In this document: one piece after another, positions 8,452 to 23,566 of the stretch
How positions within the stretch are numbered: position 1 is the stretch's first letter
Layout of the letters: each line of letters begins with the position of its first letter
Assembly (NCBI RefSeq): GCF_019264445.1
Contig: NZ_JAHVAB010000079.1
Span: 1-64,000, forward strand
DNA length: 64,000 nt
Origin: Hydrogenophaga sp.
GTDB lineage: Bacteria > Pseudomonadota > Gammaproteobacteria > Burkholderiales > Burkholderiaceae_C
Reading direction: 5' to 3'
Translations under genes and position numbers: made by a program
The notes under the pieces: generated by a model
The model's database searches: none
What the model was told of the DNA's origin: nothing
The model's input: only the letters and a program-made list of their open reading frames with translations

Positions 8452-8544
8452 GGGGGCTCCTGCGGAAACGGTGAAACACCGGCCCATTCTGTCAGCAGCA
8501 CGCATTTCCGTGCGAGCAGGCATGGATTGACCGCGCCCACAAAA

Positions 8545-8574
8545 ATGCCCCCGGCACTGGCAAGCCGGGGGCAT
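8545..8574 (-). terminator. Rho-independent terminator downstream of the DUF3309 gene
   Basis: A perfect 11-base stem (ATGCCCCCGGC at 8545-8555 with GCCGGGGGCAT at 8564-8574) with an 8-base loop. In the minus direction the stem is followed by five T residues (AAAAA at 8541-8545 on the plus strand). It would stop transcription from the small membrane-protein gene before acnA, so acnA should have its own promoter between about 8452 and 8540. Confidence 0.75.
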
Positions 8575-8885: not shown

Positions 8886-9299
8886 TCAGGCCATGGCCAG
8901 CGAGCGCTGGCGCCGCAGGGCCATCCATTGCAACTCGGCCAGCACCAGCACGGCCAGCGCCTGCACCACCAGGTACGCCTGGCCCCATGGCGTGGGCGAC
9001 AGCGCACCGCCCAGCAGCAGCGCCACGCAGGCCACCACCCACACAAAGTTGCCCAGCACCAGCGCGCGCAGCCCGGCGCGCGATGGCGTCACCTGCAAGG
9101 CCAGCGACCCCGCCAGCGCCACAAACAGCAGCAACACGAAGCCGCTGGCGTGCAGCAAGCCCGCAGGCAAGCCGAGCCAGGCCGCCAGAGGCGCTGCGAG
9201 CGCCAGATGCAGCGCGGCGGTGGCGGAGCCCGACAACGCATCGGCCCAGAGCACGCGGCGCAGGCCGGCGGTAGAGGTGAGGTGATCGATCAGCGACAT
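8886..9299 (-). CDS. Small integral membrane protein, four predicted helices
   Basis: A 137-residue protein with four hydrophobic segments (about 21-38, 45-64, 75-95 and 104-124) and a basic C terminus. I do not recognise a named family. The layout resembles small uncharacterised membrane proteins found beside regulators. The ATG at 9299 is chosen because an AAGGAG ribosome site precedes it; longer forms upstream read into the divergent promoter region. It is transcribed away from the XRE regulator, with a 123-base gap holding two palindromes, so it is a plausible target of that regulator. Confidence 0.72.
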   Translation of the reverse strand: MSLIDHLTSTAGLRRVLWADALSGSATAALHLALAAPLAAWLGLPAGLLHASGFVLLLFVALAGSLALQVTPSRAGLRALVLGNFVWVVACVALLLGGALSPTPWGQAYLVVQALAVLVLAELQWMALRRQRSLAMA

Positions 9300-9343
9300 G
9301 GTGCACTCCTTGAGGTGGTGGAACGAAGGGAATCCGGGGGCAT

Positions 9344-9388
9344 GGTCGTGCGCGACCGGCACCGCGTCCATGACGTGGGAGGTCATGG
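9344..9388. promoter_or_regulatory. Two palindromes in a divergent promoter region
   Basis: The gap between the small membrane-protein gene (minus) and the XRE regulator (plus) contains GGTCG-TGCG-CGACC (9344-9357) and CCATGAC-gtgggag-GTCATGG (9368-9388). Both are perfect inverted repeats sized for a dimeric helix-turn-helix protein. The adjacent XRE-family gene is the obvious candidate to bind them, which would make the pair autoregulated. No convincing -10/-35 pair was recognised. The assignment is inference. Confidence 0.45.
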
Positions 9389-9422
9389 CCTTGCGCCCCA
9401 ACCGTGGCCTACCATGCCGCCC

Positions 9423-10253
9423 ATGAACGCCCTGACCGCACTTCGCAGCGCCCCGTCATCCACCCCCTCGCCCTTTGGCGAGCGCCTGCGCCACTGGCGC
9501 CAGCGGCGGCGCCTGAGCCAGCTCGATCTGGCGCACGTGGCCGAGGTGTCCACCCGCCACCTGAGCTACGTGGAGACTGGCCGCGCCAGCCCCAGCCGCG
9601 ACATGGTGCTGCGCCTGCTGGACCGGCTCGACATTCCGCTGCGCGAGCGCAACGCCCTGCTGCAAGCGGCGGGCTACGCCCCGATGTACCGCGAGCGCGC
9701 GCTGGACGCACCCGACATGGCGGGCGCGCGCGACGCGGTGAAGCGCATCCTCGATTGCCACGAACCCTGGCCCGCGCTCGCCATGGACCGGCACTGGAAC
9801 CTCGTCATGGCCAACCGCATGGTGCAGATGCTGATGGCAGGTGCCGCGCCGCGGCTGCTGGAGGCGCCCATCAACGTGCTGCGCCTAAGCCTGCACCCCG
9901 AAGGCCTGGCGCCCCGCATCGCCAACCTGCAGCAGTGGCGCGGGCATTTGTTTGAACGCCTGCGCCAGCAGATCCACGCCACGGGTGACGACACGCTGGC
10001 CGTGCTGCTGGCCGAACTCAAGGGCTATCCGGAAACCGTGGGTCCCGACGCTGGCGCCTTGCCGGGCGAGCACCACGGTGTGCTCATGCCCTTTCAGTTC
10101 GACACCGGGCACGGCGTGCTGCACCTGGTGAGCACCACCACCGTTTTCGGCTCACCGGTGGACATCACGCTGCAGGAGCTGGCGCTGGAGACGTTTTTCC
10201 CGGCCGACGAGGCGTCTGCCGCGTTGCTGCGGCGGCTGGCGGCGCAGGCCTGA
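9423..10253 (+). CDS. XRE-family regulator with MmyB-like ligand domain
   Basis: A 276-residue DNA-binding protein. The N-terminal helix-turn-helix (about 18-72) includes RRRLSQLDLAHVAEVSTRHLSYVETGRA, described here only by its key parts: LSQLDLA, VSTRHLSYVE and GRASPS. The remainder matches the MmyB-like PAS-type domain, with YAPMYRERALD and LAMDRHWNLVMAN, which in related proteins binds fatty acids or similar ligands. These regulators usually control a neighbouring gene, here probably the divergent membrane-protein gene. An alternative ATG nine bases upstream (9414) is equally possible. It is a cytoplasmic repressor or activator with unknown ligand. Confidence 0.85.
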   Translation: MNALTALRSAPSSTPSPFGERLRHWRQRRRLSQLDLAHVAEVSTRHLSYVETGRASPSRDMVLRLLDRLDIPLRERNALLQAAGYAPMYRERALDAPDMAGARDAVKRILDCHEPWPALAMDRHWNLVMANRMVQMLMAGAAPRLLEAPINVLRLSLHPEGLAPRIANLQQWRGHLFERLRQQIHATGDDTLAVLLAELKGYPETVGPDAGALPGEHHGVLMPFQFDTGHGVLHLVSTTTVFGSPVDITLQELALETFFPADEASAALLRRLAAQA

Positions 10254-10314
10254 ACCGACACCGATGACGCACGCCTGCCGTTGCGCGGGTCGCTATGCAT
10301 CCCCCTGCAGATTG

Positions 10315-10342
10315 GTTCATATAATGAACTTCATTTCATTGA
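10315..10342 (+). promoter_or_regulatory. Candidate promoter -10 and IclR operator before the MmgE/PrpD gene
   Basis: A perfect palindrome GTTCAT-ATA-ATGAAC (10315-10329) contains a consensus TATAAT (10320-10325). It is followed by ATTTCATTGA (10333-10342), which is the reverse complement of a ten-base motif in the operator-like region before the FAD dehydrogenase gene (12589-12598). The -35 is weak, which fits regulated expression. The probable binding protein is the IclR regulator encoded just downstream of this gene on the opposite strand. Confidence 0.5.
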
Positions 10343-10354
10343 GCAAAATCTGTG

Positions 10355-11743
10355 ATGGATCGACTGCCTGAAGCGCGCCTTGCGGCGCACGTGCACGCAC
10401 TGCGTGACCGCCCTCTGTCCACCGCCACGCGTGAGCGACTGGCGCAAGCGCTGCTCGACTGGTTCACCGCCGGCTGGGCGGCGCTGGACATGCCGGCCAC
10501 GCCAACGCTGCAGGCGCTTGCGCGCATCAGCGTGCCCGGGACGGGTCCATCGCCGGTGTTCGGTGGCGGCGGCTTGCAGCCGATGGGGGCGGCCTTCGCC
10601 AATGCCGGCATCGCGCACTTGCGCGAAATCGACGACGCGCACCGCGCGGCGATGCTGCACCCAGGTGTGGTGGCCATCTCACCCGTGCTGGCACTGAGCG
10701 CAGCGCACCACATGCCCCTGCGGCGCTTGGCTGACGCGATCATCGCGGGCTATGAAGTGGCGCTGCGCGTGGGTGAGGTGCTGGGCACTCGCCATGCGGC
10801 TCACTTCCATGCGACCGCCACCGCCGGTGCGGTCGGCGCCGCTGCCGCCAGTGCGGTGGCATTGGGCCTGTCACAAGACCAGTTGCACCACGCCATGGGC
10901 ATCGCGGCCACGCAGTCCGCGGGTTTGTGGCAACTGGTGGACGATGAGGCACACGCCTCCAAGTCGCTGCACCCGGCGTTTGCGGTGCGCAACGGGATGA
11001 TGGCGGCCTGGGCCGCGCAGGCCGGCTTCCCCGGTGCCCGCGCGTTCGTCACCGGCCAGCGCGGGCTGTACGCCCTGCTCGCGGGCGACGGTTCGCTGGC
11101 CGCGCTGGACGGCGATCTCGATGCACCCGAACGGGTGAACACGGCCACCATCAAAGCCTGGCCTTGCTGCGCTCAACTGTTCACGCCACTGGATGCCACG
11201 CTCGAAATCCTGGACGCGCACCGGCCGGTCGTGGACGACATCGCGACCGTCGAGGTGGTGATCTTTCCTCACGCGCTGAAGATCGCTGGCGTGCACTGGC
11301 CGACCCATGCGGGCGAGACGCCCTTCTGCCTGCGTTATGTGATCGCCACGCTGTTGAGCAAAGGCCACCTGGGCATCGCAGAAATGGAAGCGCCGGACCT
11401 GCAGTCCAGCGAGCTGCTGGCGTTGGCCGAGCGCATCCAGGTGTCCACCAGCGATGAGTTCCAGCGCGCGTTTCCGCACAAACGCCCAGCGCAGGTCACC
11501 CTGACCACGAAGAACGGCGAGCGCTGGAGCGTGCTGCGCGAGCTGCGGCGCGGCGACCCAGAAGATCCGTTCACATGGGCGCAGCTGCAGGCGCGCATGC
11601 GCGCCTTCGCGCCCGAGATGGACGACGCTCAGGCCGGGCAACTCACCCGGTGGTGCGAGACGTTTGCTGATCCGGCACTGGACGACATGCCTTGCACCTT
11701 GAGCGCGTCGCTCTTTGGCTCCTCGCGCGTCACACCGGCGTAG
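10355..11743 (+). CDS. MmgE/PrpD family protein
   Basis: A 462-residue protein of the MmgE/PrpD fold. Known members are 2-methylcitrate dehydratase, cis-aconitate decarboxylase and iminodisuccinate epimerase, all acting on the alpha-carbon of polycarboxylates. Typical parts are present: the helical domain with an H-F-H-A-T-A-T-A-G stretch near 150 and LHPAFAVRNGMMAAWAAQAG near 205-225. No prpB or prpC genes are nearby, so 2-methylcitrate dehydratase is not favoured. The start ATG at 10355 is directly preceded by a possible GTG (10352). The gene overlaps the convergent IclR gene by 14 bases at its 3' end. It shares an operator-like motif with the catabolic operon downstream, which suggests it belongs to the same pathway, perhaps as an epimerase or dehydratase. 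Confidence 0.85.
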   Translation: MDRLPEARLAAHVHALRDRPLSTATRERLAQALLDWFTAGWAALDMPATPTLQALARISVPGTGPSPVFGGGGLQPMGAAFANAGIAHLREIDDAHRAAMLHPGVVAISPVLALSAAHHMPLRRLADAIIAGYEVALRVGEVLGTRHAAHFHATATAGAVGAAAASAVALGLSQDQLHHAMGIAATQSAGLWQLVDDEAHASKSLHPAFAVRNGMMAAWAAQAGFPGARAFVTGQRGLYALLAGDGSLAALDGDLDAPERVNTATIKAWPCCAQLFTPLDATLEILDAHRPVVDDIATVEVVIFPHALKIAGVHWPTHAGETPFCLRYVIATLLSKGHLGIAEMEAPDLQSSELLALAERIQVSTSDEFQRAFPHKRPAQVTLTTKNGERWSVLRELRRGDPEDPFTWAQLQARMRAFAPEMDDAQAGQLTRWCETFADPALDDMPCTLSASLFGSSRVTPA

Positions 11744-12503
11744 GCTGCCAGCCGCTGGGGGCCTTGCTCGTAAAGCCCTGCAAGGCGAGCTGCTGGCGCA
11801 CGATGTCTGCGGCTTTGCGCTGCGCCGCCACGCCATGGCGTGAAGCCAGCCCGATCACCACCAGTGCACCCAGAAACGCGCCGTCGCCATCGAATACAGG
11901 CAGCGCCACCGATGCCATTTCAGCCACGCGCTCCGAACGCGTCATGGCATAGCCCTTGGCGTCGATCTCTGCGCGATGCGGCGTGTCACCGCCTGTGAAG
12001 GCAAGCAGGATGTGCGCCGACGAACCCCCGGCGTCCAGCGCAATGCGCGTTCCCACCTCGACGTGGTGGCGCACCTCCTTGGCCGTGTTCTCACGGTACA
12101 GGCACACGCGCTCGTTGCCGCTGCGAATGTAGAAAGCGACCGTCTCGCCGGTCTGCCGCATCACCTCGTGCAGCACCGGCTGCAGCCGTGTGCCCAAGTC
12201 GAAAGTGCTGCGGTAGAGCATGCCCATGTGAAGCAGTGCCGGGCCTGGCGCGTAGCTGCCACTGTCGAAGCGGTGCAGCATGCGCGCGCGCAGCAGCACG
12301 CCCAGCAAACGAAGCAGCGTGGCCTTGTCCAGCCCGGTGCATTCGGCCAGCTCGCGCAGCGACATGCGCAGCCGGTCTTCACGAAAGCATTCCAGGATGG
12401 AGATACCGCGCTCCAGCACACCCGCAGGCGGCCTGGGAGCGCTGGCATCGGCAGCTTCGTCCAGTTCCTCATTGGCAGCGATCGTGGTCTTTGGGTTCTT
12501 CAT
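11730..12503 (-). CDS. IclR-family transcriptional regulator
   Basis: A 257-residue regulator. The winged helix-turn-helix (about 29-90) contains GISILECF, SLRELAECTGLDKATLLRLL and the family's later GSYAPGPALLHMG. The C-terminal IclR ligand domain (about 95-250) carries ETVAFYIRSGNERVCLYR and ASVALPVFDGDGAFLGALVV. IclR proteins sense an intermediate of the pathway they control. It is transcribed divergently from the FAD dehydrogenase operon and convergently with the MmgE/PrpD gene. Inverted repeats carrying TTCATTGA-type half sites lie in front of both arms, so it very likely regulates the whole island and possibly itself. Confidence 0.93.
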   Translation of the reverse strand: MKNPKTTIAANEELDEAADASAPRPPAGVLERGISILECFREDRLRMSLRELAECTGLDKATLLRLLGVLLRARMLHRFDSGSYAPGPALLHMGMLYRSTFDLGTRLQPVLHEVMRQTGETVAFYIRSGNERVCLYRENTAKEVRHHVEVGTRIALDAGGSSAHILLAFTGGDTPHRAEIDAKGYAMTRSERVAEMASVALPVFDGDGAFLGALVVIGLASRHGVAAQRKAADIVRQQLALQGFTSKAPSGWQPTPV

Positions 12504-12535
12504 GGTGGGCGTCCTGTGGTGGCGAATTATCCGTG

Positions 12536-12595
12536 TTGACAGCTCGCAAGGCTGCGCTTATAGTTTCATTCATTGAATCATAGTTCATTCAATGA
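12536..12595 (+). promoter_or_regulatory. Sigma70-type promoter with overlapping inverted-repeat operator
   Basis: TTGACA (12536-12541) and TATAGT (12559-12564) are separated by exactly 17 bases, a near-consensus promoter reading toward the FAD dehydrogenase operon. The predicted start site falls at about 12571. It is covered by a perfect nine-base inverted repeat TCATTGAAT - 8 bases - ATTCAATGA (12570-12578 and 12587-12595). A protein bound there would block initiation, so repression relieved by ligand is the simplest model. The divergent IclR gene starts 33 bases upstream of the -35 box. Confidence 0.7.
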
Positions 12596-12650
12596 AATGA
12601 TTCGACAAATCAAAACGCACGAGACAACCACCGCGACACCGCCCTTTTTC

Positions 12651-14105
12651 ATGTCGACCTTGCCCGACCCCCTTGTTGCCGACCTCGTTGCCATCGTCGG
12701 CGCCGCGCATGTACTGACCGACGCGGCGGACACCGCCCGTTACGTGTGCGACTGGCGCCGCACCTTCCCCGGCATCGCCCGCGCCGTGATCCGGCCCGCC
12801 AACACCGACGAGGTGTCGCGCGTGGTGTCGCTGTGTTCGGCGCAGGGGATTTGCGTCGTACCTCAGGGCGGCAACACGGGGCTGGTGGGCGGCTCTACGC
12901 CCGACGCCTCCGGGCGCGAAGTGGTGCTCAGCCTGGAGCGCATGTCAAAAGTGCGCCGCATTGACCCCCTGGACAACAGCATGACGCTGGAGGCGGGCTG
13001 TACCGTGCTGGCCGCGCAGCAGGCCGCCACCAACGCAGGGCGGTTGTTTCCTTTGTCCCTGGCCTCTGAGGGCAGCGCCACCGTGGGCGGCGTGGTGTCG
13101 AGCAACGCCGGGGGTGAACAGGTGCTGCGCTATGGCAATACGCGCGACCTCACGCTGGGCCTGGAGGTGGTGCTCGCCGACGGTCGCGTGCTCAATGCCT
13201 TGGGCGCCCTGCGCAAAGACAACACGGGGTACGACCTAAAGCAACTTTTCATCGGGGGCGAAGGCACGCTGGGCATCGTCACTGCCGCCACCTTCAAGCT
13301 CTACGCTCAGCCCCGCAAGGTGGTCACCACCTGGGCGGGTGTGCGCGACCCGCAAGCCGCGGTGGAACTGCTCGCGCAGCTCGGCGGTGCCGTGGGCGAA
13401 CGGGTGACCGCTTTCGAGCTCATCGGGCACCACGCACTGGCCCAGGTGCTGGCGCATGGCACACCGGGCATGCGCAACCCTTTGGCCGGCCAGCACGCAT
13501 GGTGTGTGCTGTTCGATGTGTCGGAAACATCGGCCCACATCGATCCCACGGGAGCGGTCGAAGAGGTGCTGGGCAGCGCGATGGAACAAGGCCTGGTGCT
13601 GGACGCAGTGATTGCCGCCTCTGGCCAGCAGGCGCACGACCTTTGGGCCTTGCGCGAGCACGTGCCCGAAGCGCAACGGCTCGAAGGGCCGTCGATCAAA
13701 CACGACATCTCGGTGGCCGTCTCGCGCATTCCCGAATTCATCGATGAGGCGGGCGCTGCCTTGCAAGCGCTGATGCCGGGCATTCGCGTGGTGTGCTTCG
13801 GCCATGTGGGCGACGGCAACCTGCACTACAACCAAAGCAAGCCGGCAGGCATGACGGACGCCGAGTTCCGCGCCCGCGAGGATGCTGTGCACGACACCGT
13901 GCACGCCATCACCGCGCGCATGCAAGGCTCGATCTCGGCAGAACACGGCATCGGTCGGCTCAAGCAGGCGGCCTTTCTGCACCACAAGCAGCCGCTGGCA
14001 CTCGAACTGATGGCGCGCATCAAGCACGCACTGGACCCGACCAACACCTTCAACCCGGGGCGCATGCTGCCCCTCGCCCCGCCACACACCCGTTCCCTCC
14101 CCTAG
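12651..14105 (+). CDS. FAD-binding D-2-hydroxyacid dehydrogenase (GlcD/D2HGDH family)
   Basis: A 484-residue flavoprotein of the vanillyl-alcohol-oxidase/PCMH fold. The FAD domain has PQGGNTGLVGGSTPDASG (about 65-82), SLASEGSATVGGVVSSNAGG and GGEGTLGIVTAATFKLY. The C-terminal cap has CFGHVGDGNLHYN and the metal/substrate motif SAEHGIGRLKQ. Relatives oxidise D-lactate, D-2-hydroxyglutarate, D-malate or glycolate, passing electrons to a quinone, cytochrome or ETF. The ATG at 12651 fits the family N terminus; an ATG at 12597 would add 18 residues but lies right after the operator. It heads the plus-strand operon. The substrate is probably a D-2-hydroxy dicarboxylate made by the island enzymes, which is inference. 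Confidence 0.88.
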   Translation: MSTLPDPLVADLVAIVGAAHVLTDAADTARYVCDWRRTFPGIARAVIRPANTDEVSRVVSLCSAQGICVVPQGGNTGLVGGSTPDASGREVVLSLERMSKVRRIDPLDNSMTLEAGCTVLAAQQAATNAGRLFPLSLASEGSATVGGVVSSNAGGEQVLRYGNTRDLTLGLEVVLADGRVLNALGALRKDNTGYDLKQLFIGGEGTLGIVTAATFKLYAQPRKVVTTWAGVRDPQAAVELLAQLGGAVGERVTAFELIGHHALAQVLAHGTPGMRNPLAGQHAWCVLFDVSETSAHIDPTGAVEEVLGSAMEQGLVLDAVIAASGQQAHDLWALREHVPEAQRLEGPSIKHDISVAVSRIPEFIDEAGAALQALMPGIRVVCFGHVGDGNLHYNQSKPAGMTDAEFRAREDAVHDTVHAITARMQGSISAEHGIGRLKQAAFLHHKQPLALELMARIKHALDPTNTFNPGRMLPLAPPHTRSLP

Positions 14106-14120
14106 CTCTTCAGGACAACC

Positions 14121-15482
14121 ATGCCCGTTTCCGTTTTCGACATGCAATCGCTCCAGCATCTGTGGGGCACCGACGAACTGCGCACCATCTTCGGCGAAGA
14201 AAACCGCATCCAGAAATGGCTCGACTTCGAGGCCGCGCTCGCGGCAGCACAAGCCGAGCTCGGCATCATTCCTGCGGCAGCTGCCAAAGAGATCGCGGCG
14301 CAAGCCAAGGTCGAGAACATTGACATCGCACAGATGTCCGCCGAGATCCGCCGCATCAAGCATTCGCTGGTGCCTGCGCTCAAGCAGCTCCAGGCGCGTT
14401 GCACCAGGGAAAACGGCGAATGGGTCCACTACGGCGCGACCACGCAAGACGTCGTGGACACCGGCGTGGCGCTCCAACTCAAGGAGTTTCATGCCGTGGC
14501 CATGCGCGACCTCAAGGCCGTTGGCAATGAACTGTCGCGTCTGGCCACCACGCACCGCGACGTGCCAATGGCAGGACGCACCCATGGCGTGCAAGCCCTG
14601 CCCATCACGTTCGGTCACAAGTGCGCCATCTGGCTGGACGAGCTTGGCCGTCACCATGAGCGCCTCGTGCAGGCCGCGCCGCGCGTGCTGGTGGGCATGC
14701 TGGCGGGTGCAGTGGGCAGCCAGGCCTCGCTGGGGCCCAAAGCGCTGGAGCTTGAACGCCTCATGCTCGACAAGCTGGGGCTGGGAACGCCCGACATCAG
14801 CTGGGCGCCCGCGCGCGACCGCTTCACCGAATACGCCAACCTGCTGGCCATGCTCGGCGCCACCTTGTCCAAGATAGGCAACGAGCTCTTCAACATGCAG
14901 CGCAATGAGTTCAGTGAGGTGGAGGAAGGTTTCTCCGATGGCAAGCTGGGCTCGTCCACCATGCCCCACAAGCGCAACCCGACGTCGGCTGAAAACCTGG
15001 CCGGGCTGTCCCGCCCGCTGCGCTACAACGCCGCGATGATGATCGAAGGCATGGTGCAGGAAAGCGAGCGCGACGGCATCGCCTGGAAGATGGAATGGAA
15101 GGCGCTGCCCGAGTGCTGCCTGATCGCGGGCGCCATGCTGTTTCAAGCCAAGAACCTGCTGGCGGGACTGAAGGTCAACGCCGCCAACATGGCCGCCAAC
15201 CTTGACATGATGCGCGGCTACCTGCTCTCCGAGCGGGTGATGCTCGAGCTGTCCGAGCGCGTGGGCAAGCAAACCGCCCACGAATGGATCTACGAGGCCT
15301 CGATGCACGGCATCACCTCCAAGCTCAGCTTTGCCGATGCGATGCGCCAGCACGAGGGCTTGTCCGGCTTGCTGAGCGATGCCGACATTCGCAACTTCAC
15401 CGACCCCCTGCAGTACCTCGGCCAATGCGGCGCCACGGTGGACCGCGTGGTCGCCGCGCAGGCACCCTGGCTGCAGGCCTGA
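14121..15482 (+). CDS. Fumarase/aspartase-superfamily lyase (PurB / CMLE-like)
   Basis: A 453-residue lyase with the superfamily signature GSSTMPHKRNP at about 277-287. A conserved first region WVHYGATTQDVVDTG lies near residue 95-110 and AGRTHGVQ near 150-157. It sits in the adenylosuccinate lyase / 3-carboxymuconate cycloisomerase branch. The housekeeping purB role is doubtful: the gene is inside a regulated catabolic operon, 15 bases after the FAD dehydrogenase and followed by a Bug receptor. The family breaks C-N or C-O bonds of succinyl adducts by beta-elimination, usually releasing fumarate. A catabolic substrate such as an N- or S-succinyl compound is possible. An AGGA ribosome site precedes the ATG. 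Confidence 0.85.
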   Translation: MPVSVFDMQSLQHLWGTDELRTIFGEENRIQKWLDFEAALAAAQAELGIIPAAAAKEIAAQAKVENIDIAQMSAEIRRIKHSLVPALKQLQARCTRENGEWVHYGATTQDVVDTGVALQLKEFHAVAMRDLKAVGNELSRLATTHRDVPMAGRTHGVQALPITFGHKCAIWLDELGRHHERLVQAAPRVLVGMLAGAVGSQASLGPKALELERLMLDKLGLGTPDISWAPARDRFTEYANLLAMLGATLSKIGNELFNMQRNEFSEVEEGFSDGKLGSSTMPHKRNPTSAENLAGLSRPLRYNAAMMIEGMVQESERDGIAWKMEWKALPECCLIAGAMLFQAKNLLAGLKVNAANMAANLDMMRGYLLSERVMLELSERVGKQTAHEWIYEASMHGITSKLSFADAMRQHEGLSGLLSDADIRNFTDPLQYLGQCGATVDRVVAAQAPWLQA

Positions 15483-15527
15483 ATTTCCCGGCCCGTCCAA
15501 CGCCACACAACAACAGGAGACATGACC

Positions 15528-16517
15528 ATGACGACATTCGCACGCCCCACACTGCGCCGGCGCACCGCATTCGCACTTGCCGGGGTGCTGGCACTGACCG
15601 CCCTGCCCTCGCTGGCCGCCTACCCCGATCAACCGGTGAAGCTGATCGTCGGCTTCCCACCGGGCGGCGGCGGTGATCTGTATGGCCGCTTGATCGCGGG
15701 CGCGCTGAGCAAGACCCTGGGTCAGAACGTCATCGTGGACAACCGCACCGGCGCTGGCGGCAACATCGCCGCCGACCTGGTGGCCAAGTCCAAGCCCGAC
15801 GGGTACACACTGTTGCTGGCCATGAGCGGCAACCTGGCCGTTGCACCGGCCATCAAGCCGCAGTCAATCCCCTACAAGGTGCCCGATGACTTCGCGCCCA
15901 TCGGCATGATCCTCGAGGCGCCACATGGTCTTTTCGTGGCCAACAACTCCCCTTTCAAGACCGCCCGCGAACTGCTCGATGCGACCAAGACACGCAAGCT
16001 CAGCTTCGCTTCGACGGGCACGGGCGCTGCCGCCCACATTGGCATGGAGATGGTGAAGATGGCGGCCGGCGTGGACATGCTGCACGTGCCGTACCGAGGC
16101 TCCGGCCCCGCCATCACCGACATGATGGGCGGCCAGGTTGACAGCTTCTTTGCCACCGCATCGCCTCTGGTGAACCAGGTGCGCCAAGGGCAACTGCGCC
16201 TGCTCGCGATCACGGGCAATGCGCGCAACCCCGCCATTCCCGATGTGCCCACGTTCAAGGAATTGGGCGTGAACGTCCCCGTGACCCAGTGGTATGGCCT
16301 GGTGGCACCCGCCGGCACGCCCGAGCCGGTCATCAAGCACCTGGCCGACCACTTGAGCCGCGCGCTGGCATCGGCGGAGGTGCGCGACGCCATCCGCCGC
16401 GATGCGGCCACTGAGCGCGATCTGCCCACGCAGGGCTTTCGCAAGTTCATTCAGGAAGACATCGAACGCTACAAGGGCGCCGTCACGCCCGCGCTGCTCA
16501 AGGAAATTTCTCAATAG
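15528..16517 (+). CDS. Bug/TctC-family periplasmic receptor, first paralogue
   Basis: A 329-residue exported solute receptor. A basic start is followed by a hydrophobic signal (AFALAGVLALTALPSLA), and the mature protein begins near YPDQPVKLIVGF. The ligand-loop motif is FPPGGGGDLYGR rather than the more common PGGGTD form; the second paralogue at 17456 has the same version. GAGGNIAADLVAKSKPDGYTLL and SGPAITDMMGGQVD are standard family blocks. The ATG at 15528 is preferred over the one at 15522 because AGGAG ends 8 bases before it against 2. No TctA or TctB permease gene is seen in the window, so it either uses a distant permease or acts in sensing. Confidence 0.9.
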   Translation: MTTFARPTLRRRTAFALAGVLALTALPSLAAYPDQPVKLIVGFPPGGGGDLYGRLIAGALSKTLGQNVIVDNRTGAGGNIAADLVAKSKPDGYTLLLAMSGNLAVAPAIKPQSIPYKVPDDFAPIGMILEAPHGLFVANNSPFKTARELLDATKTRKLSFASTGTGAAAHIGMEMVKMAAGVDMLHVPYRGSGPAITDMMGGQVDSFFATASPLVNQVRQGQLRLLAITGNARNPAIPDVPTFKELGVNVPVTQWYGLVAPAGTPEPVIKHLADHLSRALASAEVRDAIRRDAATERDLPTQGFRKFIQEDIERYKGAVTPALLKEISQ

Positions 16518-16555
16518 ACCGGCACGCCCTCGTGCCCGCCAGCCTGGACCTTCAT

Positions 16556-17413
16556 ATGATGTTTGACACCCTGATTTCCGCCAACGAACTGGCGGTCGCG
16601 CAGAACAGTCCCGGCTCGCTGCTGGTGCTGGACTGCAGCTTCGAGCTCAACGATTTGCAGGCTGGCCAGCGCGCGTACGACGCTGGCCACATTCCCGGCG
16701 CGCACTACCTGCACCTGGAACACGCGCTGTCTGCACCGAAGACAGGCCGCAACGGAAGACACCCGCTGCCCAGCCGAGAAACCTTTGCCACCACGATGGC
16801 GGCGCTGGGCCTGAACCAGCACACGCAGGTGGTGGCCTGCGACAACGCCGGCGGCATGTACGCGGCGCGCTTGTGGTGGATGCTGCGCTGGGTCGGCCAC
16901 CGCGCTGTTGCAGTGCTTGACGGAGGTGTGGCCGGCTGGGTCGCCCAGGGTCACGCCCTCAGCACACACACGCCTCCCGCTCTGCCTCCGGGCAACTTCG
17001 CCCTGCGGCCATCGCTGGTGACCACCGTGACCTTCGACGACGTAAAAGCCAACATCGATCAACCGCAACGGCTGGTGCTGGACGCGCGTGCACCGGACCG
17101 CTTTCGCGGTGAGAACGAAACCATGGACCCGATCGGCGGCCACATCCCGGGCGCGCGCAACCGCCTGTTCAAGGACAACCTCGGTGCCGACGGTCACTTC
17201 AAACCAGCGGCCCAATTGCGCCAGGAGTTCGACGCCATCACAGGTGGACGCGCCGCCACACAACTGATCAACCAGTGCGGCTCAGGCGTGACCGCCTGCC
17301 ACAACCTGCTGGCCATGGAGGTGGCCGGTCTGCAAGGCGCGGCGCTCTACCCTGGCTCGTGGAGCGAATGGAGCGCGCAACCGGGTGCACCCATTGCCAC
17401 CGGCGCGGCCTGA
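16556..17413 (+). CDS. 3-mercaptopyruvate / thiosulfate sulfurtransferase
   Basis: A 285-residue tandem rhodanese protein. The N-terminal domain (about 1-130) lacks a catalytic cysteine. The C-terminal domain has Cys241 in CGSGVTA, the loop typical of 3-mercaptopyruvate sulfurtransferase rather than thiosulfate-specific rhodanese (CRKGVTA-type). It transfers sulfane sulfur from mercaptopyruvate to acceptors such as cyanide or thiols, in the cytoplasm. It lies between two Bug receptor genes in the island operon, an unusual place for this enzyme, and hints that sulfur chemistry is part of the pathway. Two adjacent ATGs (16556 and 16559) are possible starts; a GTG at 16532 would add eight residues. 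Confidence 0.88.
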   Translation: MMFDTLISANELAVAQNSPGSLLVLDCSFELNDLQAGQRAYDAGHIPGAHYLHLEHALSAPKTGRNGRHPLPSRETFATTMAALGLNQHTQVVACDNAGGMYAARLWWMLRWVGHRAVAVLDGGVAGWVAQGHALSTHTPPALPPGNFALRPSLVTTVTFDDVKANIDQPQRLVLDARAPDRFRGENETMDPIGGHIPGARNRLFKDNLGADGHFKPAAQLRQEFDAITGGRAATQLINQCGSGVTACHNLLAMEVAGLQGAALYPGSWSEWSAQPGAPIATGAA

Positions 17414-17455
17414 CCACCACGCACCCTCAACACAACAACACCGCTGGAGACACAC

Positions 17456-18433
17456 ATGAACGCACATTCCTGGACAAGGCGCTGCGCCGCACTGGCTGCG
17501 GCCGCCTGCCTGCTGGGCCTGACAACGGCCGCAAGCGCCAATGGCTACCCGGAACAACCCATCCGATTGCTGATCGGTTTCCCCCCAGGTGGCGGCGGCG
17601 ATCTGTACGGCCGAACCATCGCCAACGAACTCGGGAAACACATCGGCAAGCCCCTTGTCGTGGAGAACAAGCCCGGGGCGGGCGGCAACATTGCCGCCGA
17701 GTTGATGACGCAAGCCAAGCCCGATGGCTACACCTTGCTGCTCGCCATGAGCGGCAACTTGGGCAGTGCCCCAGCCATCCGCAACAACCTGACCTACAAG
17801 GTGCCCGACGATTTCGTCTTCATCAGCCAGCTGGTGGAAACGCCCTACGGGCTGGTGGTCAGCGGTGACTCCAAAATCAAGACCATCCAGGACTACATCA
17901 CAACGGCCAAAGGCGGTCAGCTCAGCTACGCATCCACCGGAACGGGCGGTGCGGCGCAGATCGTGATGGAGATGGTCAAGCAACAGGGCAATCTGGATGT
18001 GCTGCATGTGCCTTACAAAGGCTCCGGGCCGGTGATGACCGACTTGATGAGTGGCCTGGTGGGCAGCTTCTTCGCGCCCTACACCCCACTCATGGGGCAG
18101 ATCAACAGCGGCAAGCTGCGCGTGCTGGCCGTGAGCAGCGAGAAACGGGTCCCCAGCATGCCCAACGTACCCACGCTCAAGGAGTCCGGCATCGATGTGG
18201 TGATGACCCAGTGGTACGGCCTTGTCGCACCCAAGGGCACACCGCAGCCGATCATCGACAAGATCACGCAGGCGGTGAAGCAAGCCATGCAGACGCCTGA
18301 GGTGCAGCGCGTGTACAGGGCAGACGGCGCACAGGAGTCGACACTGACCGGCGCCGCCTTTCGCGAGTTCGTGCTCAAGGACATCGCCAACTACAAGCGC
18401 GGAGTGGAACGGGGCAACCTCAAGGTGGAGTGA
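17456..18433 (+). CDS. Bug/TctC-family periplasmic receptor, second paralogue
   Basis: A 325-residue exported receptor with a clear signal peptide (CAALAAAACLLGLTTAASA) and mature start YPEQPIRLLIGF. It shares long stretches with the first paralogue, including FPPGGGGDLYGR, the GAGGNIAAEL block and VTQWYGLVAPKGTP-like sequence near 240, so the two arose by duplication. GGAG lies six bases before the ATG. The duplicates flank the sulfurtransferase gene in the same direction, suggesting two ligands or a substrate and a product. As with the first copy, no permease gene is nearby. Confidence 0.9.
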   Translation: MNAHSWTRRCAALAAAACLLGLTTAASANGYPEQPIRLLIGFPPGGGGDLYGRTIANELGKHIGKPLVVENKPGAGGNIAAELMTQAKPDGYTLLLAMSGNLGSAPAIRNNLTYKVPDDFVFISQLVETPYGLVVSGDSKIKTIQDYITTAKGGQLSYASTGTGGAAQIVMEMVKQQGNLDVLHVPYKGSGPVMTDLMSGLVGSFFAPYTPLMGQINSGKLRVLAVSSEKRVPSMPNVPTLKESGIDVVMTQWYGLVAPKGTPQPIIDKITQAVKQAMQTPEVQRVYRADGAQESTLTGAAFREFVLKDIANYKRGVERGNLKVE

Positions 18434-18529
18434 AGCCGCCATTCGCGCAACCCGACGCCTCCTGCCCACTGAACACCCCTGCATTCCGCCGTGCCACCGC
18501 TCCCCCTGACACCGAACGCCCACCCCCAG

Positions 18530-20818
18530 ATGCACCCGCACAGCGCACACTGGGGGGTCTTTTCTGCCGGCTGGCACAACGGCACCCTGGTGGTGAAACC
18601 CCACCCGGGCGACCCCGACCCCAACCCGCTGATTGAGAACTTCACCACCGCCTTGCACCACCAGGCGCGGGTCACGCAGCCCATGGTGCGACGCGGCTGG
18701 CTTGAGCGAGGTCCCGGACCCGACGCCCGACGAGGCCTTGACGGCTTCGTACCCATGGCATGGGATGAGGTGCTCGATCGTCTGGCCGCCGAGTTGCGCC
18801 GCGTACAACAACAGCATGGCTGCGAAGCCATCTTCGGTGGCTCTTACGGCTGGTCCAGTGCAGGGCGTTTCCACCATGCACAAAGCCAGGTGCACCGGTT
18901 CCTCAACACGTCGCTGGGCGGCTACGTGCGCTCGGTCAACAGCTACAGCGCCGGGGCCTCGGGCCCGATCCTTCCGCACGTCATCGGCACCATGGAAGAG
19001 GTCGCCCGGCGCAACGTGACCTGGGAACAGATCGTCGAACACACCGACGTGGTGCTGGCGTTCGGTGGCATGGCGCTCAAGAACTCGCGCGTGGCCTCAG
19101 GCGGGATCAGTCGTCATATCGAGCGCGAGTCGATGCGCGCGGCAGCCGCGCGCGGCTGCCGCTTCGTGTCCATCAGCCCGATCAAGAGCGATCTGCCCGA
19201 AGAAGCGGCTTTCGAATGGCTGCCCGCCGTGCCCGGCACCGACACCGCCCTGATGCTGGCGCTCGTGCACCAGCTGGTGAGTGACGGTGCGCATGACCGC
19301 GCCTTCATCGACAGGTATTGCGACGGCTGGAACACCTTCGAGGACTACCTGCTCGGCCGCAGCGACGGCACACCCAAGGGCTGCGCCTGGGCAGCGCCCA
19401 TCTGTGGCGTGACTGAAACCCGGTTGATCGCTCTCGCACGATCACTCGTCGGCAAGCGTGTGCTGGTGGTGGTGGCGCATTCATTGCAACGCGCCGAACA
19501 CGGTGAGCAACCGGTGTGGATGGGCGCTGTGCTCGCGGCAGCACTGGGCCAGCTGGGACTGCCCGGCGGCGGCTACAACTACGCACTGGGCACATTGGCG
19601 CACTACGGCAAGCGCAACAACGCTGTGCCCGCCGCCGCGCTGCCGCAAGGCGACAACAGCGTGCGCGCATTCATTCCTGTGGCCCGCATCAGCGACATGC
19701 TGCTCAACCCGGGACAACCGTTCGACTACAACGGCCAGCGACGAATCTACCCCCACATCCGGCTGGCGTATTGGGCCGGCGGCAATCCGTTCCACCACCA
19801 CCAGGATCTCAAGCGCCTGGCGGACGCCTTTCGAACGCTGGACACCTTTGTCGTGCACGAGATCGCGTGGACGGCCACCGCAAGGCACGCCGACATCGTG
19901 TTGCCCTGCACGATGACGCTGGAACGCGAAGACATCGGCGCCACCCCCACCGACCCCCTGCTCGTGGCCATGCACCGCATCACTGAGCCGCACGGCCAGG
20001 CGCGCGACGACTACGACATCTTTTGTGATCTGGCCCAACGGCTGGGCGCACTCGACGCGTTCAGCGAAGGCCGCAACACGCGTCAATGGCTCGCCCATCT
20101 CTACGAGCGGACCCGTGCGGGCCTGGCGGGGCTTGGCCTTGAAGCGCCCGACTTCGACACCTTCTGGCAACGCGGCGAGCTCACACTGCCGCAGAAGGAC
20201 GACGACGGCGGGATACTTCGCGCTTTTCGCCACGACCCTGTCGGCGCACCCCTGGCCACGCCCAGCGGCAAGGTTCAAATCAGCTCGCCGGTGGTGACCT
20301 CGTTTGGCTACTCGGACTGCCCAGGGCACCCGGCCTGGCTGCCTCCGGCCTTTCCCCCCGACCACAAACACCCGCTGTGGCTGGTGGCCAACCAGCCCCA
20401 CACCAAGCTGCACAGCCAGCTCGACTTTGGTGCCCACAGCCAGGCCAGCAAACGCCAGGGCCGAGAGGTTTGCACGATGCACCCCAACGCCGCCAGCGCC
20501 CGTGGCATCCACGAAGGCGACATCGTTCGCCTGTTCAATGAAGTGGGCGCCTGTCTGGCCAGTGCGCACCTGTGCGCCGACATGCGCGAGGACGTGGTGC
20601 AACTGCCGACCGGCGCCTGGTACGACCCCATACACGATGCGCAGGGTCGCCCGATGTGCGCGCATGGCAACCCCAACGTGCTCACACGCGACGTCGGCAC
20701 CTCGTCGCTGGCGCAGGGTTGCGCGGGGCAGCTGGGCACCGTCCAGGTCGAGCGCCACGAAGGGCCGCTGCCCCCGATCCGGACCTACGAGCCGCCCACA
20801 CCCCACAGCGCTTGGTAA
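18530..20818 (+). CDS. Molybdopterin oxidoreductase, BisC/TorZ (DMSO reductase) type
   Basis: A 762-residue bis-MGD enzyme of the DMSO reductase family. The N terminus lacks the Cys motif for a 4Fe-4S cluster, as in BisC, TorA and Rhodobacter DMSO reductase. GGSYGWSSAGRFHHAQ at about 103-118 corresponds to the serine molybdenum-ligand loop of that subgroup. The C-terminal MGD-binding domain begins near PLWLVANQPHTKLHSQ. No twin-arginine signal is visible, so it should be cytoplasmic like BisC, which reduces biotin or methionine sulfoxides and other S- or N-oxides. No c-type cytochrome or chaperone gene accompanies it. A GTG at 18491 would add 13 residues. It ends the island operon just before a terminator. 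Confidence 0.85.
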   Translation: MHPHSAHWGVFSAGWHNGTLVVKPHPGDPDPNPLIENFTTALHHQARVTQPMVRRGWLERGPGPDARRGLDGFVPMAWDEVLDRLAAELRRVQQQHGCEAIFGGSYGWSSAGRFHHAQSQVHRFLNTSLGGYVRSVNSYSAGASGPILPHVIGTMEEVARRNVTWEQIVEHTDVVLAFGGMALKNSRVASGGISRHIERESMRAAAARGCRFVSISPIKSDLPEEAAFEWLPAVPGTDTALMLALVHQLVSDGAHDRAFIDRYCDGWNTFEDYLLGRSDGTPKGCAWAAPICGVTETRLIALARSLVGKRVLVVVAHSLQRAEHGEQPVWMGAVLAAALGQLGLPGGGYNYALGTLAHYGKRNNAVPAAALPQGDNSVRAFIPVARISDMLLNPGQPFDYNGQRRIYPHIRLAYWAGGNPFHHHQDLKRLADAFRTLDTFVVHEIAWTATARHADIVLPCTMTLEREDIGATPTDPLLVAMHRITEPHGQARDDYDIFCDLAQRLGALDAFSEGRNTRQWLAHLYERTRAGLAGLGLEAPDFDTFWQRGELTLPQKDDDGGILRAFRHDPVGAPLATPSGKVQISSPVVTSFGYSDCPGHPAWLPPAFPPDHKHPLWLVANQPHTKLHSQLDFGAHSQASKRQGREVCTMHPNAASARGIHEGDIVRLFNEVGACLASAHLCADMREDVVQLPTGAWYDPIHDAQGRPMCAHGNPNVLTRDVGTSSLAQGCAGQLGTVQVERHEGPLPPIRTYEPPTPHSAW

Positions 20819-20833
20819 GCGCCGCAAACTCAC

Positions 20834-20868
20834 AAAAAAAAGCCGCTGCATCTGCAGCGGCTTTTTTT
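20834..20868. terminator. Bidirectional terminator between the molybdoenzyme gene and acnB
   Basis: GCCGCTGCA (20842-20850) pairs with TGCAGCGGC (20853-20861), and the stem extends through an A-run (20834-20841) into a T-run (20862-20868). It would terminate the plus-strand island operon and the minus-strand acnB transcript from the opposite side. The apparent two-base loop would open to a larger one in RNA. Confidence 0.85.
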
Positions 20869-20901
20869 CTCCCGCACCGCCAGCGCGGTGCGCGGCAGGC
20901 C

Positions 20902-23502
20902 TTACGCCGTCACGCCTTTGGCGGTGTCCGCGTACTCCTCGATCTGGTCGAAGTTCAGGTACTTGTAGATCGCCGCGCCGTCCTTGTTCACCACACCCAT
21001 GGCTTCGTGGTATTCAGCCACGGTGGGGATGTGCCCCAGCTTGGACGCAATCGCGGCCAGCTCGGCCGAGGCCAGGAACACGTTGGTGTTCTTGCCCAGG
21101 CGGTTGGGGAAGTTGCGGGTGGAGGTGGACACCACGGTGGCGCCTTCGCGCACCTGCGCCTGGTTGCCCATGCACAGCGAGCAGCCCGGCATTTCGGTGC
21201 GCGCACCGGCCGCGCCGAAGTTGGCGTAGTGGCCTTCCTTGATCAGCTCGCTCTCGTCCATCTTGGTGGGGGGTGCCACCCACAGCTTGACGGGGATGTC
21301 GCGGCTGCCACCCAGCAGCTTGGCGGCTGCGCGGAAGTGGCCGATGTTGGTCATGCACGAGCCGATGAAGGCTTCATCGATCTTGGTGCCGGCCACGTCC
21401 GACAGGGTCTTGGCATCGTCCGGGTCGTTCGGGCAGCACAGGATCGGCTCCTTGATGTCAGCCAGGTCGATTTCGATCACGGCGGCGTACTCGGCGTCCT
21501 TGTCGGCTTCCAGCAGGCTCGGGTTCGCCAGCCAGGCTTCCACCTTTTCGATGCGGCGCTTGAGGCTGCGCGCGTCGGCGTACCCTTCGGCGATCATGTT
21601 CTTCATCAGCACCACGTTGCTGGTGAGGTATTCCTTCACCGGCTCGGGGTTGAGCTTGATGGTGCAGCCAGCGGCCGAGCGCTCGGCGGAAGCGTCGGAC
21701 AACTCGAACGCCTGCTCCACCTTCAGGTCCGGCAAGCCTTCGATCTCCAGGATGCGGCCCGAGAAGATGTTCTTCTTGCCGGCCTTGGCCACGGTCAGCA
21801 GACCGGCCTTGATGGCGTACAGCGGGATCGCGTGCACCAGGTCGCGCAGGGTCACGCCGGGTTGCATCTGGCCCTTGAAGCGGACCAGCACGGACTCGGG
21901 CATGTCCAGCGGCATGACGCCGGTGGCGGCACCGAAGGCCACCAGGCCGGAGCCAGCCGGGAAGGAAATGCCGATCGGGAAACGGGTGTGCGAATCGCCG
22001 CCCGTGCCCACCGTGTCAGGCAACAGCAGGCGGTTGAGCCAGCTGTGGATCACGCCATCGCCCGGACGCAGCGCCACGCCACCGCGGTTGCTGATGAACG
22101 CAGGCAGTTCGCGGTGGGTCTTCACGTCCACCGGCTTGGGGTAGGCGGCGGTGTGGCAGAAAGACTGCATCACCATGTCGGCGCTGAAGCCGAGGCAGGC
22201 CAGGTCCTTCAGTTCGTCGCGGGTCATCGGGCCGGTGGTGTCTTGCGAACCCACGGTGGTCATCTTGGGCTCGCAATACGTGCCAGGGCGCACGCCCTGA
22301 CCTTCGGGCAAACCGACCGCACGGCCAACCATCTTCTGCGCCAAGGTAAAGCCAGCCTTGGTGGCGGCCGGTGGCTGCGGCAGACGGAACACGGTGGATG
22401 CAGGCAGGCCCAGGAACTCGCGCGCCTTGGCGGTGAGCGAACGGCCGATGATCAGGTTGATACGGCCACCCGCGCGCACTTCGTCAAACAGCACATCGCT
22501 GCGCAACTGGAACTCCGTCACCAGGGCGCCGCCCTTGGTGATCTTGCCTTCGTAGGGGTGGATGTCGATCACGTCGCCCATTTCGAGCTTGCTCACGTCC
22601 ACTTCGATCGGCAGCGCGCCCGAGTCTTCCTGGGTGTTGAAGAAGATCGGCGCGATCTTGCCGCCGAGCGTCACCCCGCCAAATCGCTTGTTCGGCACAA
22701 ACGGAATGTCCTGGCCCGTGGCCCAGATCACCGAGTTGGTGGCGCTCTTGCGGCTGGAGCCCGTTCCCACCACGTCGCCCACATAGGCGACCAGGTGGCC
22801 CTTCTTCTTCAGGTCGTCAATGAACTGCATCGGGCCGCGCTTGCCATCTTCCTCGGGCTTGAAGGCCGCGCCTTCACGCGTGTTCTTCAGCATGGCGAGG
22901 TAGTGCAGCGGAATGTCGGGGCGGCTCCAGGCGTCGGGCGCGGGAGACAGGTCGTCGGTGTTGGTTTCGCCGGGCACCTTGAAGACGGTGACGGTGATCG
23001 TCTTGTCCACTTCGGGGCGGGTCGTGAACCACTCGGCATCGGCCCAGCTCTGCATCACTTCCTTGGCCTTGGCATTGCCGGCCTTGGCCTTCTCGGCGAC
23101 GTCGTTGAAGAAGTCGAACATCAGCAGCGTCTTCTTCAGGCCTTCAGCGGCCACGCCAGCCACTTCCGCGTCGTCCAGCAGCTCGATCAGCGGGTGCACG
23201 TTGTAGCCACCCACCATGGTGCCCAGCAACTCGGTGGCCTTCGCTTTGGAGATCAGCTTGACCTGCATGTCGCCATGGGCCACGGCAGCCAGGAACGAGG
23301 CCTTGACCTTGGCGGCATCGTCCACGCCGGGGGGCACGCGGTGCGTGAGCAGGTCCAGCAGGAAGGCGTCTTCGCCAGCCGGGGGGGCCTTGATCAGCTC
23401 GATCAGCTCGGCCACCTGCTTGGCTTCAAGCGGCAGCGGCGGAATGCCCAGCGCGGCGCGTTCGGCGGCGTGGGCGCGGTAGTCGGTGAGGAAGGTGGAC
23501 AT
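20902..23502 (-). CDS. acnB: Aconitate hydratase B (AcnB)
   Basis: An 866-residue AcnB-type aconitase, the main TCA-cycle enzyme in most proteobacteria. The N-terminal HEAT-like domain (about 1-155) contains [18 protein letters not shown]. The swivel domain follows ([16 protein letters not shown]), then the catalytic domains with [4Fe-4S] ligands Cys716 (GSCMTN), Cys774 and Cys777 (GCSLC). Start at 23502 is supported by a GGAGATC ribosome site; a longer frame upstream overlaps the CitE-like gene and is not conserved. It follows mdh and the CitE-like lyase in the same direction, 64 bases after the latter, so it is probably in the mdh transcript or has its own promoter there. Confidence 0.97.
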
Positions 23503-23566
23503 GGCGATCTCCAGAGGACAGTGAAATTCGTGGGTCGGAAAACAGATGGGGCGGATGCAAGCAAGC

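Follow-up and report, generated by a model that had tools for sequence, protein, structure and literature searches.

A lyase gene passing the purB profile in Hydrogenophaga sp. probably belongs to a conserved, operator-defined organosulfur regulon

S-(2-succino) lyase (2SL), encoded in yxe/scm-type loci, reversibly cleaves succinated thiols to fumarate and thiol, with an equilibrium that favours synthesis and some promiscuity for small thiols, and its yxe-type locus is defined by an acetyltransferase, amino-acid ABC genes and a deacetylase, according to the available text of Hillmann et al. (2022; PMC9706529). Other described systems that bear comparison are XcbD, the 3-sulfopropionylcysteine synthase of coenzyme M synthesis; IDS-epimerase (PDB 2hp0/2hp3) and the BNC1 fumarate lyase 3c8t, in which an MmgE-type protein is likewise paired with a fumarate lyase; and sulfur oxidation by 3-mercaptopyruvate sulfurtransferase (MST) and persulfide dioxygenase. 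Here we analyse positions 1 to 64,000 of contig NZ_JAHVAB010000079.1 of Hydrogenophaga sp. (GCF_019264445.1), hereafter the window, in which the open reading frame (ORF) at 14121–15482 encodes a lyase of the 2SL superfamily. We put at roughly 0.6 the probability that this is a C–S lyase central to an IclR-repressed organosulfur regulon, made up of an MmgE gene and of the series FAD dehydrogenase–lyase–Bug–sulfurtransferase–Bug–BisC. What sequence comparison brings out is the non-PurB identity of the lyase, a conserved gene set, a palindromic operator-like element and the CGSGVT loop of the sulfurtransferase; the direction of the pathway, each of its reactions and its substrate are what we infer.

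14121–15482, + strand: lyase ORF (fumarase/ADSL superfamily, proposed C–S lyase), 453 aa, ATG start
14952–14978, + strand: superfamily signature SSTMPHKRN, residues 278–286, invariant across a 50-row alignment apart from H283
15066–15098, + strand: lyase motif ERDGIAWKMEW, residues 316–326, replacing the ERDISHSSxER of PurB

The lyase is a real gene, distinct from housekeeping PurB. It scores above cut-off for the Pfam domains Lyase_1 (175.1 bits) and ADSL_C (55.7 bits) and also exceeds that of the curated purB model TIGR00928 (361.6 bits; cut-off 326.2), so that its automatic name is 'adenylosuccinate lyase', the annotation trap that the original prediction had suspected. TIGR00928 does not discriminate PurB, since lyases from 2SL-type gene contexts pass it as well (378–383 bits). 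A profile search of the 4.43-Mb genome (99.98% complete) found four PF00206 members: FumC, ArgH, a canonical E. coli-type PurB (PRK09285, 724.5 bits; cut-off 446) and the lyase. The original prediction had held a housekeeping purine role unlikely, an idea that a sole purB in the genome would have contradicted; a second, canonical one is present, the PurB-type motifs are lost from the lyase, and the lyase clade stands apart from PurB in a superfamily tree (support 100/99). Moreover, the majority of this clade differs at 17 of the 57 columns that are invariant in 12 PurB rows (eight Bacillus-type and four E. coli-type).

Close relatives of the lyase are patchily distributed. Among 150 genomes of the family, 30 (own included) were matched at E 1e-60, nearly all at 37–41% identity; the sole close relative (G132) was 88% identical, and the only other congeneric genome sampled gave no match. 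Across the order, at E 1e-110, 11 of 399 genomes were matched (own included), one at 80% and nine at 55–57% identity. Out of 86 relatives from a scan of named-species genomes, the 80 best supplied loci, which we divide into 54 clade loci at 62–92% identity (L062–L113, L122, L124), ten sister loci at 54–58% (L114–L121, L123, L125), 14 from Chloroflexi and others, and two that were set aside: L139, whose lyase is a second, divergent copy, and L141, without a full-length lyase match in the ORF tables. The lyase of Variovorax gossypii is 92% identical. In a tree of 88 rows, thinned from 143 (left out were L019 and L035, with no clean frame, L130, with an in-frame stop, and L026 and L148, with fewer than 4200 bases), the 36 cluster rows formed the single clade mentioned above, with L139 inside it and adjoining a 57% identity group that includes Proteus and Cupriavidus. 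The XcbD of JS614 and NBB4 fell outside this clade, as did lyases of Pantoea and Niallia whose loci carry GNAT, amino-acid ABC and amidohydrolase genes; these lyases stand for the 2SL context in three rows that do not include the two assayed 2SL enzymes. PurB was not one group in the tree, and the placement of XcbD, Proteus, Niallia, L136, L132, L027 and L139, all long branches, is unsure.

The motif ERDxxxW[KR]xEW, to which the window sequence conforms, was present in all 57 clade rows, all three 2SL-context rows, both XcbD rows and nine of the 11 sister and Proteus rows, with a near form in L139. It was found in none of 25 PurB rows, 13 Chloroflexi and other rows, or 31 rows of the 40% identity group (these include four second copies of the same genes, L178–L181); the last group has ER[AGS]TGPW instead, as do Tad1 and 3c8t. 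The Bacillus-type PurB form ERDISHSSxER occurred in 15 of the 25 PurB rows and in 0/57 of the clade, the other ten PurB rows, E. coli-type, having RDLTDST. Residues H103, T107, D110, H155, S278, K284 and N286 were invariant in the 50-row alignment, and the clade residues H103, T108 and S279 correspond to H, T and T in the 2SL-context rows and to Y, V and I in XcbD.

The lyase lies in a cluster comprising the following elements.

10315–10348, + strand: operator-like palindrome before the MmgE gene, the second window site at ≥22/29
10352–11743, + strand: MmgE/PrpD-family protein (Pfam; solved-structure matches)
11730–12503, − strand: IclR-family regulator, presumed repressor (Pfam HTH_IclR and IclR_C)
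12536–12564, + strand: sigma-70-like promoter TTGACA-17-TATAGT (consensus scan, 11/12 positions)
12564–12597, + strand: operator-like palindrome, 34 bp, overlapping the promoter end (29/29 consensus positions)
12651–14105, + strand: FAD-linked D-2-hydroxyacid dehydrogenase (Pfam, solved-structure matches; ORF listed from TTG 12573)
15522–16517, + strand: Bug/TctC solute receptor (Pfam TctC, 228.1 bits)
16532–17413, + strand: tandem rhodanese with CGSGVT loop, proposed 3-mercaptopyruvate sulfurtransferase (Pfam, loop)
17456–18433, + strand: second Bug/TctC receptor (Pfam TctC, 225.8 bits)
18491–20818, + strand: BisC-like molybdopterin S/N-oxide reductase (bisC_fam, dimethyl sulfoxide (DMSO) reductase match)

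The ORFs on either side of the lyase (12573–14105 and 15522–16517) match the FAD dehydrogenase and Bug receptor originally described there. For the dehydrogenase, ATG 12651 is a likelier start than TTG 12573, since the latter falls within the operator-like palindrome. The IclR gene is convergent to the MmgE gene and divergent from the dehydrogenase–lyase genes.

Much of this gene set recurs with the lyase in relatives. Homologues were counted at E ≤1e-6 and 55% query coverage (with ≥40% identity for the FAD dehydrogenase and ≥33% for IclR); the MmgE of L093 and L094 is only 28–29% identical. Of the 54 clade loci, 52 have MmgE and equally many a Bug-type receptor, 50 the FAD dehydrogenase, and 48 each the sulfurtransferase and IclR; BisC follows with 33 loci, a persulfide dioxygenase-like protein with 17 and TctA with 12. 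Sulfurtransferase, FAD dehydrogenase and MmgE occurred jointly, within ~10 kb, in 46 of the 54. The same three were each absent from all ten sister loci, and the Chloroflexi and other loci had neither sulfurtransferase nor FAD dehydrogenase (0/14 each), with MmgE in 2/14. Cluster gene order and strand differ among Comamonadaceae, Alcaligenaceae, Roseomonas, Rhodobacter-type alphaproteobacteria, Aurantimonadaceae and Billgrantia, which favours a functional tie between the genes. A small carboxymuconolactone-decarboxylase-family protein also recurs by similarity in 23/54 clade loci (L110:9624-9956, which was profile-scanned, and L079:12479, for example).

A second line of evidence is the palindrome, which bears out the original proposal of a regulated catabolic operon behind a repressible promoter. 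The promoter at 12536–12564 was the only sigma-70-like match within 9200–21000, a count that by itself proves nothing given a mean of 0.7 in shuffled sequence. The palindrome overlapping it and the one before the MmgE gene are the two sites scoring at least 22/29 in the window, and a scan of the whole 4.43-Mb genome with a degenerate pattern (≤3 mismatches) gave matches at only these two cluster places, a reversed control pattern giving 0. The shared element links MmgE with the lyase operon and lends support to a repressible promoter. In 58 sequences totalling 1.23 Mb (the window, L046–L048 and the 54 clade loci), 92 sites scored at least 22/29, all 92 of them near cluster-gene starts, and five dinucleotide shuffles yielded 0 each; the consensus was derived from the scanned loci, which makes the scores partly circular and leaves unaffected the positions, the whole-genome count and the absence of the palindrome from 23 sister and other loci. 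It lies upstream of the IclR gene in 49 of the 52 loci having one, and 37 of 38 MmgE genes with ≥50% identity have a palindrome of their own. In several Variovorax loci, a persulfide dioxygenase-like gene is divergent from MmgE with the palindrome between them. Comparison supports the regulon well, and the IclR protein is predicted to bind the palindrome.

The sulfur-handling neighbours suggest what the regulon may do. The loop CGSGVT was conserved in 52/52 sulfurtransferase rows of the relatives listed (L051 and L080 share one genome, and L047 and L048 belong to near-identical strains). In the window it reads CGSGVTACH, the MPST type, whereas that of thiosulfate sulfurtransferase (TST) reads CRKGVTACH, in agreement with the available text of PMC10135228. 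The curated MST model PRK11493 (cut-off 250) was passed by the rhodanese of Celeribacter L110 (257.7) and failed by those of L102, L095 and L093. The metallo-beta-lactamase-fold neighbours in L102 and L095 match the dioxygenase half of Blh at 373.0 and 376.1 bits, the Blh cut-off of 625 applying to the full fusion; these two were profile-scanned, and the other persulfide dioxygenase-like proteins were counted by similarity to them. One of these neighbours matches PDB 4ysk at 312.3 bits, second to 9g8t; for its companion 4YSL, the available text of PMC6060420 describes a Type II persulfide dioxygenase of Pseudomonas putida together with glutathione. The own genome encodes a 60% identical persulfide dioxygenase-like protein on another contig. 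These neighbours argue strongly for a sulfur role of the cluster, which resembles MST and persulfide dioxygenase sulfur oxidation in its CGSGVT loop and, in 17/54 loci, its Type II-like dioxygenase neighbour, and differs in that one operator here covers such genes together with a neighbouring fumarate-lyase-family enzyme and D-2-hydroxyacid dehydrogenase. Elsewhere in the own genome there is a second sulfurtransferase-like frame (G000:C77:34609-35469, L187; 49% identity) with one in-frame TGA.

Among solved structures, the FAD dehydrogenase matched 3pm9, a putative oxidoreductase, at 448.9 bits and the mitochondrial D-2-hydroxyglutarate dehydrogenase 6lpn at 285.5 bits; it is nearest to D-2-hydroxyacid enzymes and matches the GlcD model under its cut-off. 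The BisC-like protein matched DMSO reductase 1dms at 610.9 bits. The top solved matches of the window MmgE were B. subtilis IRG1 (bsIRG1; 7bra, 111.7 bits), presumably the protein YxeQ, and IDS-epimerase (2hp3, 90.8 bits). The bases proposed for the latter, His99 and Tyr145 (available text of PMC7347537), were mapped onto the MmgE rows via bsIRG1 (His102, Tyr146): the histidine is kept in 58/58 rows and the tyrosine in 12/58, with Ala in the window. By analogy, MmgE is possibly an epimerase of the succinyl carbon; most rows lack the tyrosine base, a difference from IDS-epimerase itself, so that some other isomerisation or a dehydration is also possible.

Since the lyase shares the 2SL motif and has sulfur-linked partners, we read it as a fumarate-releasing S-succinyl (C–S) lyase, which is quite likely on this comparative evidence. 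A three-carbon thiol acid is favoured as the released thiol because the partners are a D-2-hydroxyacid dehydrogenase, a sulfurtransferase and a dioxygenase, and we tentatively name S-(2-succino)-3-mercaptolactate or the matching mercaptopyruvate, that is, deaminated succinated cysteine, as the substrate, a choice that could easily be wrong. The Bug receptors would help to import the S-succinyl thioether acid; the BisC-like enzyme would reduce the sulfoxide to the thioether if the substrate arrives oxidised; and MmgE/PrpD would invert or otherwise isomerise the succinyl carbon, making both stereoisomers usable. The lyase would then beta-eliminate the thiol to give fumarate and the three-carbon thiol acid; the FAD D-2-hydroxyacid dehydrogenase, acting before or after this step, would convert 3-mercaptolactate to 3-mercaptopyruvate; and the sulfurtransferase would turn the latter into pyruvate and a persulfide, which persulfide dioxygenase, encoded within the cluster in some relatives and on another contig here, could oxidise to sulfite. 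Such withdrawal of the thiol would overcome the lyase equilibrium. The new substrate of the original prediction is supported only indirectly: the conserved neighbours indicate a sulfur chemistry that it had not mentioned, and the substrate itself is hypothetical.

Several observations weigh against this reading. Two lyases, in Paracidovorax cattleyae (L074) and P. oryzae (L077), lack any partner; the sulfurtransferase is absent from L100, L101 and L109 (as it is from L073, a short contig) and the dehydrogenase from L068 and L071. In the sister clade a D-2-hydroxyacid dehydrogenase occurs without a sulfurtransferase, so that the chemistry of the lyase need not be sulfur-bound. The window rhodanese is tied between solved MST (144.9 bits) and TST (144.4 bits) and falls short of the PRK11493 cut-off (144.2), the BisC-like protein is below that of bisC_fam (870.5 bits; cut-off 1017.55), and the loss of the tyrosine base from MmgE counts against an epimerase. 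Finally, the confident AlphaFold model of the lyase (mean pLDDT 91.7) finds Tad1 and 3-carboxymuconate cycloisomerase (CMLE; Z 45.1 each), 3c8t and PurB (Z about 39–45), structural neighbours that do not discriminate between roles. The lone Paracidovorax lyases (L074:3007-4362, L077:4477-5832) lie near RHS and alpha-glucan genes.

Among the alternatives, one in which the cleaved bond holds no sulfur is unlikely. The lyase would then act on a succinyl acid with an O or N linkage, for example carboxymethyloxysuccinate, which an ether lyase cleaves to glycolate, or iminodisuccinate, giving aspartate; MmgE would serve as the epimerase, and oxidation of the hydroxyacid would fall to the GlcD-like enzyme. 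The relation of MmgE to IDS-epimerase and the GlcD match are in line with this, as are the sister loci, 7/10 of which have an NAD D-2-hydroxyacid dehydrogenase homologue and none the sulfurtransferase. The conserved CGSGVT sulfurtransferase and the persulfide dioxygenase-like and S-oxide reductase neighbours would be unaccounted for, however, and the ERDxxxW of the lyase differs from the ERATGPW of the BNC1 lyase 3c8t, which may be an iminodisuccinate lyase. Among L114–L121, seven of the eight sister loci have the NAD dehydrogenase homologue beside the lyase, and all eight have TctA. In Proteus mirabilis (L049:3685-10818), a sister-clade lyase with Leu at the H155 position of other lyases is followed by MmgE, near cystathionine beta-lyase, DcuC and an MST above its cut-off.

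An ordinary 2SL of the established S-(2-succino)cysteine (2SC) pathway, releasing cysteine from 2SC or N-acetylcysteine from N-acetyl-2SC, is likewise improbable as the identity of the lyase. Superfamily, motif, an organosulfur gene set and the proposed release of fumarate from an S-succinyl thioether are common to both, the motif being that of the Pantoea and Niallia lyases, and the available text of PMC9706529 reports that 2SL enzymes accept several small thiols. Against this, the tree keeps the lyase clade and the 2SL-context clade apart, GNAT and amidohydrolase homologues (Niallia queries, thresholds as above) numbered 0 in the 54 clade loci, and the partners found instead (2-hydroxyacid dehydrogenase, MST-like protein, Bug/TTT, BisC) suit a hydroxy- or keto-acid thiol rather than an amino acid; we rejected the plain 2SL assignment on account of these other neighbours and the separate clade. 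Pantoea plasmids carry genes named purB (L050:8001-9371; L145:7001-8371) whose neighbours are GNAT, amino-acid ABC and amidohydrolase genes; these purB-named genes probably encode S-(2-succino) lyases. Niallia taxi pMEGANia (L142:7989-14703) carries a 2SL-like lyase alongside GNAT and amidohydrolase genes and an FMN monooxygenase of NtaA/DmoA type that may be YxeK-like, which would set both disposal routes side by side.

Action on a tricarboxylate such as aconitate, in the manner of the trans-aconitate decarboxylase Tad1 or of CMLE, has little to commend it. Tad1 and CMLE head the structural matches, and aconitase-type genes flank the cluster in the window (5593–8574 and 20902–23781); among the 84 relatives' loci examined, an aconitase match near the lyase was found only in the Candidimonas locus L139, where the divergent lyase is accompanied by Bug, MmgE and an aconitase-family gene. 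The lyase has ERDxxxW[KR]xEW and not ER[AGS]TGPW, it fails both models of PcaB, the 3-carboxymuconate cycloisomerase (PRK09053, 371.9 against 595; TIGR02426, 277.4 against 355.75), and the sulfurtransferase would be left unexplained. Still harder to uphold is a role in coenzyme M synthesis as an XcbD-type enzyme. XcbD is the top-scoring NCBIfam model (527.6 bits) and shares C–S chemistry and the motif, but the lyase stays under the cut-off of 600, which the XcbD of JS614 and NBB4 exceed (695.2 and 710.8), and has H103, T108 and S279 where these have Y, V and I, grounds on which XcbD membership was rejected; nor was phosphosulfolactate synthase or any other coenzyme M gene found among the eight neighbourhood proteins profile-scanned. 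A second housekeeping-type adenylosuccinate lyase, for which the TIGR00928 score speaks, is scarcely credible and was dismissed given the separate genomic PurB, the deviating PurB columns and the absent motif.

We did not find the gene set described in the open-access literature searched, subscription papers lying mostly outside our scope, and an earlier description may exist; the available portions of the Variovorax thiodipropionate and Advenella mercaptosuccinate accounts (PMC5373536, PMC6370202, PMC8102459) do not name the cluster. The fold of the lyase is ordinary and its role probably not, with a conserved, operator-defined organosulfur regulon standing behind a purB name: genes passing the purB model can be misnamed adenylosuccinate lyase despite sulfur-linked operons, and the motif and operator separate this clade. 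It is conceivable, though we would not lean on it, that beta-, alpha- and gammaproteobacteria share a widespread new route for succinated sulfur compounds in their deaminated hydroxy- or keto-acid form. With similar reserve, one IclR operator might govern the whole of it, from sulfoxide reduction, epimerisation and C–S lysis to D-2-hydroxyacid oxidation and sulfur transfer from 3-mercaptopyruvate. If so, succination products would have, in addition to YxeK and 2SL, a third means of disposal, one with no need for acetylation, and the pathway would predict roles for genes of the MmgE/PrpD, FAD dehydrogenase, Bug and rhodanese types that lack an assigned substrate. S-succinyl thioethers are products of fumarate damage to thiols, of interest in metabolic disease, and by such a route soil and plant-associated bacteria would recover both carbon and sulfur from them.
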